Of a stretch of 64,000 bases of DNA, positions 32,126 to 64,000 are shown piece after piece. Positions within the stretch are counted from its first letter, which is position 1, and every line of letters begins with the position of its first letter. Origin of the DNA: Bacteroidaceae bacterium (GTDB lineage: Bacteria; Bacteroidota; Bacteroidia; Bacteroidales; Bacteroidaceae); contig JAFYQK010000021.1 in assembly GCA_017547165.1 (NCBI GenBank), positions 22,615 to 86,614 of the forward strand, given 5' to 3'. The translations under genes were made by a program, and so were the position numbers. A model generated the notes under the pieces. The model was given only the letters and a program-made list of their open reading frames with translations, was not told the DNA's origin and did not search any database.

Positions 32126-32202
32126 ATGTTTGTTTGTTACGTTCCAAAAGTAATTGGGCAAGCAAATAAACAGTAGATATACGTGTTTATAAAAATGTAC
32201 AT

Positions 32203-32303
32203 AACGTTTGGTACAAATAGACCCAATATTGTGTACAATACTCCTGAATATTGTGTATATTGCTCCTCAATGTTGTAGATATATTATAAAAAGTGCTCTT
32301 TTT
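32203..32303 (+). repeat. 22-bp period tandem element, copy A
   Basis: Four head-to-tail 22-bp units: 32203-32224, 32225-32246, 32247-32268 and 32269-32290. Each begins AAyrTT, and the first three have GTA at positions 10-12; units 2 and 3 share AATATTGTGTA at the start and CTCCT near the end. AGTGCTCTTTTT follows at 32292-32303. The same arrangement occurs on the minus strand at 63553-63653. The similarity extends about 15 bp upstream. No open frame lies here. See the findings. Confidence 0.75.
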
Positions 32304-32454
32304 ATTTATATTATGCTTTCTTGTTGTCTTTATATCGCTACGGTTACAATTTTATCTGCATGTTAATATAGCATGGATTCCTTTGACATACGTTAATGGA
32401 AAGTAATTTTGTGTTGATTAGCGGAGAGCGTCGGTTCGGATTTAATCAAATAAA

Positions 32455-32486
32455 TTTGTGAAATCGCTCACTTATTTGTAATTTTG
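32455..32486 (+). promoter_or_regulatory. Canonical promoter of the DUF1573 gene
   Basis: TTTG at 32455-32458, a 20 bp spacer and TAATTTTG at 32479-32486, just before the start codon at 32492, so the transcript is almost leaderless. Confidence 0.75.
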
Positions 32487-32491
32487 TACCC

Positions 32492-33547
32492 ATGATATTA
32501 AGGATTTTGATATTTTTATATGTGTTTGTGATAGGGGCTTTGGCCTGCGCACAACCTAAATTTGTGGCTGATACTGATATTCATAAGACTGGTGAGATTC
32601 AGTTTCAAAGGCCTCATACTATGTTGCTGGGTTTTACCAACAAGGGTACTAAGGCGTTGCATATAAAAAAGGTGGTGGCTTCGTGTGGGTGTACCAAGGT
32701 AAAGTATCCGCATGGAAACATCGCTCCGGGCGACAGGGGAGAGATAGAAGTTACTTTTGATGCCGCTATGTTGGGCTCGTTTAATAAGTATATCGAGGTG
32801 TTCACCAATGCTGGAAAGGAACCGGAGTTTCTTTCTTTTCAGGGAAGGGTGGTGACCGAGGTTGCCGACTTTACGAGAGGTTTTCCCATAGACTTGGGTA
32901 ACGTCAGGATGAATACCAATTACATCGAGTATGATAATGTGCGAAAGGGTGATGTGTTAGCGGCAGAGCTTTCGGTGGTGAATACCGACCATCTGGCATA
33001 CCGACCCCAACTTATGCATCTGCCTCCGTACCTGACGGCTCAGTATGTTCCTGAAAATATTCCTGGTGGCAAAATGGGTGTGATACGCCTCATTCTGGAT
33101 ACCAATGGTTTGGAAACTTATGGATTGAATCAGACGAGCATCTATTTGGCAAGGTTTTTGGGCGATAGAATTAGCGAGTCTAACGAGATAGTAGTGTCGT
33201 CAGTACTGGTGCCTGCGGTGGGAGAAACCAAGCAGAATGGAGCAAAACTTGTTTTGAGTACGGATGAGATAGTATTTAACGGAAAGGCCAAGAAACCCAA
33301 GGCTGTGTTGAAAGTGAGCAACGAGGGCACTGCTCCGCTCACGATACACAATCTGCAGGTCTTCAATCATGCCGTTGAGGTGGCATTGTCTAACAAGGTG
33401 ATTCAACCAGGCAAGTCGGCAAAACTTTCGGTGTCGGTAAAGAAATCGTTGCTTGAAAGGTTTAAGGCTCGTCCGCGCGTGCTTCTTGTGAGCGATGACG
33501 CAGACACTCCTGTGAAGATTGTAAACATAAGGTTGGCAGACGATTAG
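32492..33547 (+). CDS. DUF1573 domain protein
   Basis: A 351-residue exported protein with a signal peptide (ILIFLYVFVIGALACAQ). Two or three immunoglobulin-like DUF1573 (ASPM-SPD2-Hydin type) repeats follow: the first has FTNKGTKALHIKKVVASCGCTKVKYP, with the family CGCT motif, and GDRGEIEVTFD; the last has KVSNEGTAPLTIHNLQVF. These domains are common in exported Bacteroidota proteins, probably for protein contacts. Function not known. Both conserved Cys are present. It has a near-leaderless promoter. Confidence 0.85.
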   Translation: MILRILIFLYVFVIGALACAQPKFVADTDIHKTGEIQFQRPHTMLLGFTNKGTKALHIKKVVASCGCTKVKYPHGNIAPGDRGEIEVTFDAAMLGSFNKYIEVFTNAGKEPEFLSFQGRVVTEVADFTRGFPIDLGNVRMNTNYIEYDNVRKGDVLAAELSVVNTDHLAYRPQLMHLPPYLTAQYVPENIPGGKMGVIRLILDTNGLETYGLNQTSIYLARFLGDRISESNEIVVSSVLVPAVGETKQNGAKLVLSTDEIVFNGKAKKPKAVLKVSNEGTAPLTIHNLQVFNHAVEVALSNKVIQPGKSAKLSVSVKKSLLERFKARPRVLLVSDDADTPVKIVNIRLADD

Positions 33548-40009: not shown

Positions 40010-40097
40010 GGAGAGGTGCTCGAGTGGTTGAAGAGGCACGCCTGGAAAGCGTGTATACGTCAAAAGCGTATCACGGGTTCGAATCCCGTTCTCTCCG
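40010..40097 (+). tRNA. tRNA-Ser(GGA)
   Basis: An 88-nt class II tRNA. The acceptor stem pairs GGAGAGG with TCTCTCC (one G-T pair at the end), the anticodon stem CACGC/GCGTG holds the loop CTGGAAA with anticodon GGA, a long variable arm (TACG...CGTA) follows, and the T arm has GGTTCGAATCC. The CCA end is not encoded. It reads UCC and UCU serine codons. Confidence 0.95.
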
Positions 40098-63505: not shown

Positions 63506-63552
63506 AATTAATCTATGCCTATATAAAAGCAAAAAGAAAGGGTTATATAGGC

Positions 63553-63653
63553 AAAAAGAGCACGAAACAAAAAATATCCTCAACATTGAGGAGTATTGTA
63601 CCTAATATTTAGTATAAATGTACACAGTATTGTGTACAAATGTACTAAACATT
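63553..63653 (-). repeat. 22-bp period tandem element, copy B
   Basis: On the minus strand four 22-bp units run 63653-63632, 63631-63610, 63609-63588 and 63587-63566, then TCGTGCTCTTTTT (63565-63553). Unit starts read AATGTT, AATACT, AATATT, AATGTT, and the first three have GTA at positions 9-12. The order, number of units and tail match copy A at 32203-32303. Confidence 0.75.
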
Positions 63654-63846
63654 ATGTATATATTTTTTACGCCTATTTCAGGAGTTTATTTGCTTGTACA
63701 AATGCTTTTAATAAAGCTGTAAAAAACATTTTTGCTAATAGTTGAATTTGTAGATGTTAAAGTTCTATCGAGGCGTTCTCTAACCGCCATTCTTGGGTTA
63801 AATTGTTCGTAATTAGTTATCTTAAGTTAATTTCTTATAAAAAATC

Positions 63847-63975: not shown

Positions 63976-64000
63976 TAGCAAGCAAGCAAGCAAGCAAGCA
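63976..64000 (+). repeat. AGCA tetranucleotide repeat at the window edge
   Basis: At least five AGCA/AAGC units run up to the last base. The array continues outside the window, so its length is unknown. Confidence 0.8.

Follow-up and report, generated by a model that had tools for sequence, protein, structure and literature searches.

In the MatP/matS and ParB/parS systems, one sequence-specific DNA-binding protein has several target sites scattered over the chromosome. The HU-HIG proteins of Bacteroidetes, a group whose expansion was reportedly recognized by Burroughs et al. in 2017, have to our knowledge no established function. In one passage of PMC11035120, an HU-HIG protein is tabulated under cell replication and turnover, with nothing more said of it.

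A repeat of dispersed tandem units has been described in Porphyromonas gingivalis, in which BrickBuilt, a MITE/minisatellite, consists of tandem 23-nt repeats, with 19 intergenic copies scattered through the genome of one strain (Klein 2015, PMC4596501). According to that report, the sequence is confined to P. gingivalis and P. gulae and has outward promoter activity, and its smallest copy, of 84 nt and between three and four units, adjoins PGN_0872, which is listed as a PF00216 DNA-binding protein (PMC4596501). No HU-type ligand is proposed in the sections considered, and the terms ‘histone’, ‘nucleoid’, ‘HU family’ and ‘binding site’ do not occur in its main text (PMC4596501).

An element of similar appearance occurs twice in the window, the 64,000-nt stretch of Bacteroidaceae DNA that was analysed here. 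Its copies, A and B, are probably gene-less dispersed copies of an HU-HIG operator region, which would be autoregulatory at the gene and would provide a chromosomal docking platform elsewhere. This function as HU-HIG docking platforms is suggested by the presence of similar arrays, with other sequences, before HU-HIG genes in related gut bacteria. HU-HIG genes are not known to be preceded by word-specific dyad arrays, or to be dispersed together with them, and no link of such arrays to HU-HIG was found in the open-access literature among the matches listed.

The element in the window

Copy A (32137..32342, + strand; 206 bp), delimited by an alignment of 12 copies of 206-208 bp from its own genome, consists of a left arm, a four-dyad array and a right arm. 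The array (32195..32282, +), recognized in the sequence by the dyad symmetry of its units, is formed by four contiguous 22-bp dyads at 32195-32216, 32217-32238, 32239-32260 and 32261-32282. A sequence-only reading of the window had described four exact 22-bp steps with AAYRTT unit starts, and these cores are indeed found at 32203, 32225, 32247 and 32269, spaced exactly 22 bp apart; the GTA attributed to positions 10-12 of the units in that reading is also present, its true positions being 9-11. The left arm (32137..32194, +) includes a conserved AAAYAAA, marked by invariant alignment columns, and a TAnnTTTG box that faces outward (leftward), its outward offset being 42. The right arm (32283..32342, +) is, in the alignment, degenerate at the TATCTTTG position, which in the right arm of HU-linked copies probably serves the HU-HIG promoter as its -7 box.

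Copy B, located by profile search and alignment, lies in inverse orientation at 63514..63720 (- strand; 207 bp), with its four 22-bp dyads at 63574..63661 (-) in the sequence, as expected from the earlier claim of a second copy with the same unit length on the other strand. The best lag-22 self-match is 44/66 in both copies, as compared with a mean of 21.7 and a maximum of 34 for copy A, and a mean of 21.8 and a maximum of 35 for copy B, in 2000 dinucleotide shuffles each (p=0.0005 in both cases), and both are also called by Tandem Repeats Finder. Since the likeness of A to B holds over the whole element (144 of 208 aligned columns identical), it extends past the interval 32188..32303 first delimited; the 116-bp piece taken there as the unit is replaced by a conserved element of about 208 bp. 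The units are contiguous and alike and no unique spacers are present, and CRISPR is rejected, as it had been on first reading. A known RNA family, a match to which the same reading had named as refuting, is likewise rejected, since an Rfam 15 scan of the window gave no match at the repeat site at gathering scores and returned only a tRNA at 40010.

Two minor features of the window may be recorded here. A promoter-like sequence, CGCTC(A/G)CTTATT(T/C)GTAAnTTTG, recurs beside several genes, at 32460-32486 of the window and in the flanks of several copies of the element, and six AGCA repeats occupy the contig end at 63977-64000.

Copies in the genome and comparison with BrickBuilt

The 2.26-Mb draft genome (G000) harbours 14 copies of the approximately 208-bp intergenic element, including A and B; blastn yielded 14 matches at 12 loci, and a profile built from those 12 identified 14 loci. 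The further copies that the sequence-only reading had proposed to seek by profile are thus present in this genome, with more in its congeners. Element length is exactly 208 bp in 10 of the 12 aligned copies (A, 206; B, 207) and the mean column identity is 78%. None of the 14 arrays falls within a called ORF, and the flanking ORFs are divergent at five copies, convergent at four and tandem at three, the remaining two being without both neighbours called.

The core of the element is composed of four 22-bp dyads with the consensus TTGTCCTCAATATTGAGTACAA, which is self-complementary at 20 of 22 positions when seeded with the four units that copy A actually contains. In the 12 aligned copies, whose 48 units were read in fixed frames, the mean self-complementarity is 0.64, as compared with 0.29 in shuffled units. 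The whole element also forms a weak dyad about the array. In 10 of 12 copies its score is higher than that of any of 100 shuffles, for which the arms were slightly shorter (88 vs 100), the exceptions being copy B (0.48 vs 0.50) and C24b. All 14 copies are matched by the profile on the opposite strand as well, which is consistent with dyad units and a weak whole-element dyad. Four is the commonest number of units per site, both in the own genome (10/14 with a perfect palindrome composed from visible units as the seed, 13/14 with the real copy A units) and in congeners (14/18), and four-unit sites make up 7/12, 14/14 and 4/7 of those in the genomes G139, G140 and G141, respectively. In the assignment of ORF context, the arrays of L203 and G083_C138, flagged in ORFs, were set aside by eye because the ORF starts are probably too long; the array of L188 (G139) lies outside called ORFs, and L218 and L220 of G141 were left out of the classing.

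Compared by description, BrickBuilt is the closest described thing and looks like the same class (PMC4596501), so the element is not wholly undescribed, as had been supposed. Tandem 22-23-nt repeats occur here, too, at many intergenic loci; the two have in common tandem units, dispersed intergenic copies, a lineage-restricted sequence and a DNA-binding gene beside one copy. On the other hand, a BrickBuilt copy contains 1 to 22.8 units, as opposed to the usual four, and is described as having leader and tail segments and IS5-type terminal repeats with target duplications (PMC4596501). The BrickBuilt precedent favours the view that the element is a MITE-like non-autonomous mobile element, whose internal minisatellite is only incidentally periodic and which HU-HIG genes captured as a promoter. 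This view is considered rather unlikely: no terminal repeat with target duplication was seen by eye at the own-genome element in the aligned flanks listed, with boundaries approximate.

The HU-HIG protein beside the element

In two of the own-genome copies, C21 and C6, an HU-HIG gene begins 36 nt past the element, the gene at C6 running for 28 codons before the contig ends. The protein (P0001) is a member of the HU-HIG family (PF18291) by its Pfam score (60.5 bits, cut-off 26.2, E=2.1e-16) and is assigned to HU_rel by NCBIfam, while the L118, L139 and L155 proteins match PF18291 at 46-56 bits, above the gathering cut-off. PF00216, under which the protein next to the smallest BrickBuilt copy is listed, is the HU family. 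HU-HIG proteins combine an HU domain with a C-terminal domain that appears helix-turn-helix (HTH)-like, an assignment made from weak HTH-type Pfam matches for L139 and L155; this C-terminal part contains a conserved LTGLSRTTAxxEL segment. The 3' part of the HU-HIG gene is also found at three more contig ends, at C15 and at both ends of C22, and at least three near-identical own copies of the gene are therefore probably present.

At other arrays only remnants of the gene are found. A decayed HU-HIG piece follows own C26 (E 1e-13), approximately 11 HU codons and then a deletion, seen in the DNA alignment too, are found at G066_C139 and G086_C50 (E 0.15 and 0.26), and an HU remnant at own C12c was recognized by eye only. 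Such remnants would be expected if HU-HIG units duplicate and the gene decays while the operator-promoter region lingers without function, an explanation of the solitary copies that has some force but falls well short of being likely. The uniform 208-bp length of 10 of the 12 own copies, together with their column identity, argues against it.

The TAnnTTTG box stands at a fixed distance on the right-hand side of 6 of the 14 own copies (not A or B) and on the left of 3, with 1.4 expected per side. The right-hand excess and the activity of BrickBuilt pieces, which drive lacZ in E. coli (PMC4596501), would fit a regulon in which each element is a promoter/operator placing its neighbour gene under one regulator. 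This is improbable, and a neighbour-gene promoter is unlikely as the general role of the element, given that convergent ORFs flank 4 of the 12 own copies for which both neighbours are called and that the gene following copy A (32492-33547) seems to have its own promoter. The probable native promoter of this gene (32445..32491, +), outside the element, resembles by eye the region before the orthologue in the congeners G085, G086 and G070. Moreover, the HU copy of G140 has the box, while the other 13 sites of that genome are at chance level; the test is of little use in G139 and G141, since their HU copies, too, are without the box.

Arrays upstream of HU-HIG genes in Bacteroidales

The association of arrays with HU-HIG genes extends beyond the genus. 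Among 62 relatives of P0001 from Bacteroidales genomes, a sample of non-independent loci that includes some near-duplicates and the L112 copy of the congener G085, a 21- or 22-bp periodic array is found within 250 nt upstream of the gene in 50 (p<=0.01) or 55 (p<=0.05), whereas 12 have no directly upstream array at p<=0.01. The period is 21 bp in 42 of the 50 and 22 bp in 8. A periodicity score of at least 0.65 was obtained for 38 of the 62 HU-HIG upstream regions, as compared with 6 of 207 mechanically called ORFs from the same loci. In a scan of lags 12 to 40, 44 of the 62 HU-HIG regions scored at least 0.6 (43 at lag 21 or 22), as did 23 of the 207 control ORFs, 4 of them at lag 21 or 22. 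In three of these 4 cases (L119, L122 and L123), the control ORF is the gene next to HU-HIG on its 5' side. At these three loci HU-HIG lies downstream of another gene, which is preceded by the periodic array, and in L123 this 5' neighbour is a BT4734/VapE-like gene.

Dyad symmetry at or above the 95th percentile of random words is seen in 36 of the 50 array words (picked at match >=0.55). The word itself differs among HU-HIG paralogs, even within one genome, as exemplified by L115, L118, L123 and L127 of SUXW01. Since the arrays that recur in front of HU-HIG genes throughout Bacteroidales have unrelated words, one captured element is an unlikely source of the arrays, which weakens the mobile-element explanation.

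Array likeness is correlated with the proteins to a modest extent. In 45 arrays, the Spearman coefficient is 0.28 for C-terminal-domain identity and 0.20 for HU-domain identity, and with HU-domain identity removed, the partial correlation with C-terminal identity is 0.23 (permutation p=0.002). The 41 pairs with more than 70% C-terminal identity have a median array score of 29 against a background of 8, while pairs below 55% are at background. In a post hoc and small comparison among 57 proteins, GTAC is most frequent upstream of L118 (LSHTVAAKEL; 5) and L124 (LSHTSAALEL; 3), followed by three proteins with 2. The own HU-HIG also has LSHTVAAKEL, with GTAC in its dyads but only 2 upstream of own C21, and L121 (LSHTTAANEL), with 0, is a counterexample.

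Dispersed arrays in other genomes

In other genomes, the word found upstream of an HU-HIG gene recurs at sites away from it. G139, G140 and G141 were each searched with one HU-HIG array, and up to 1.5 kb per side, less at contig ends, was viewed; HU-HIG was found at 1 of 12 array loci fetched in G139, 1 of 14 in G140 and 2 of 9 in G141. The lack of an HU match at 11 of the 12 G139 loci and 13 of the 14 G140 loci within this distance, in which short stubs could escape, speaks against functionless remnants of duplicated genes, as do the four units at every G140 site. As observed by eye, 3 of the 12 G139 arrays (L183, L186 and L188) have the end of one shared repeat no more than about 30 bp away, perhaps that of an insertion sequence favouring arrays.

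The array of Parabacteroides distasonis WP_005856492.1 recurs in 9 records at 20 places (best of each E<=6e-3), and no HU match was found in 7 of the 8 fetched array regions other than the gene's own. The remaining one, L246, has an HU stub of 16 residues (E 2e-5), and L245 looks by eye like an HU operator-promoter region, with no HU gene found in its 4.1 kb; both would suit decay after duplication. At H17 the array overlaps a hypothetical ORF of 46 residues. With the array of B. finegoldii WP_022275387.1, 12 Bacteroides records were matched at E<=1; the 11 matches listed are all from B. finegoldii, with no place under an annotated gene among them, and the weakest match (E 0.4), like those in Carnobacterium, is no better than chance.

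Carriage by phages or plasmids is rejected: in viral contigs a pattern search, which detects close relatives only, found no relative and there was one distant phage match, and of 10 matches in a plasmid collection, the three records with annotated genes that were viewed all look chromosomal.

A proposed architectural role

Because 22 bp corresponds to about two turns of the helix, the sequence-only reading had offered three options: an array for a regulator, a site for a nucleoid protein or a mobile cassette with a regulatory role. Of these, the sequence evidence points to a protein-binding array with HU-HIG as the suggested ligand, and of the mobile cassette it is the dispersal that is demonstrated. 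In the favoured reading, in which A and B derive from an HU-HIG operator region, an HU-HIG dimer would read each 21-22-bp dyad via its paired C-terminal domains, and four dimers might bind next to one another along the same face of the DNA, which the HU domains could bend or wrap. At its own gene, the resulting nucleoprotein complex would form just upstream of the promoter and autoregulate HU-HIG, while solitary arrays may act as architectural nodes of the chromosome, in a role like that of MatP/matS, rather than mainly in the control of neighbouring genes. New sites could have two origins: in part, HU-HIG units may duplicate and then lose the gene, of which HU stubs survive beside some arrays, and in part the array itself may disperse.

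As in MatP/matS and ParB/parS, one protein would serve dispersed sites. However, matS and parS are single sites and are widely conserved, whereas the sites here are four-dyad arrays whose words differ among lineages and paralogs, and the folds of MatP and ParB differ from that of HU-HIG. Only tentatively can the proposal be widened to a Bacteroidales-wide chromosome-organising system, in which each HU-HIG paralog would have its own approximately ten four-dyad sites and protein and sites would change specificity together, giving private codes per species and paralog. If the arrays are HU-HIG sites, each protein comes with a readable target list, so that its function could be put to a direct test in gut commensals, Parabacteroides distasonis among them. 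Such arrays would also constitute a natural collection of protein-DNA specificity pairs and offer a possible explanation for BrickBuilt.

Sites in congeners

Nine of 139 genomes of the genus, including the own one, have a profile match at E<=1e-4 in a search whose filters can lose weak matches; the matches are clear in G000, G066, G070, G081, G083, G085 and G086 and weak in G054 and G105. Inspected by eye, the weak G054 match (L063) is a different periodic array, with a CCCAATGTTGG-type word of its own. No HU-HIG match was found in G066 or G081, and in G070, G083 and G086 none was close, only matches of 22-30% identity being obtained, all five being 69-88% complete MAGs in which HU-HIG could be missed. 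These genomes carry 1-5 arrays each; thus, unless the MAGs miss HU-HIG, arrays persist without a cognate gene, as they would if they were relics. In the HU-HIG of G085 (L112) the usual C-terminal part is replaced.

The evidence for constraint on solitary copies is mixed. Between own C9b and its orthologue in G083, the element is 85% identical with no indel over 204 bp and the flanks 67-68% with indels; for this site across the own/G083 and G086/G083 pairs, the element is at 85-86% without indels, as against 64-68% with indels in the flanks. The constraint seen between own C9b and G083 is at odds with a lingering region devoid of function. Within the closest pair of orthologues, from own C9b and G086, the flanks (97 and 95%) are better conserved than the element (93%), which favours that explanation. 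A second orthologous set gives 78-90% for the element, 83-88% for the upstream flank and 66-84% for the downstream flank, with the element between its two flanks in 2 of 3 pairs.

The two genes flanking copy A are also neighbours in G085 and G086, where the short intergenic region between them has no element, and at this locus G070 has an array with a different word. G081_C38 and G070_C19a, from different species and with different neighbour genes, have the element in common at 197 of 205 columns and share 121 bp upstream at 98.3%. Both this sharing and the element-free orthologues of the copy A region are as expected of a MITE-like element.

A second, GC-rich four-dyad family (CGCCACTGGCGA-type, with symmetric ends) occurs in G070 at 40 distinct loci (e.g. 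L104:2680-2790), with 80 matches over both strands. Six HU-HIG queries detected no HU-HIG within up to 1.5 kb of 15 distinct loci tested, and one weak HU-like frame lies approximately 900 bp from one locus. This second family, with no HU-HIG found at the loci tested, together with the congener arrays without a close HU-HIG, is the reason for which decay after duplication and MITE-like mobility are both retained as alternatives to HU-HIG docking platforms.

A transposon was considered and rejected. A transposase-like reading frame, which we take to be IS982-like, is interrupted at the element in G070_C19a and G066_C102; a short part of this stretch recurs at G081_C38 (E 6e-17), and it has only chance-level matches at the other copies. 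A small inverted-repeat element with TTAACCCAAATCGGTCATTAG-type ends is seemingly inserted inside the array element in L094 (G070_C19b) and L095 (G066_C102), and it is also found near own C23 (L013) and C12a (L014).
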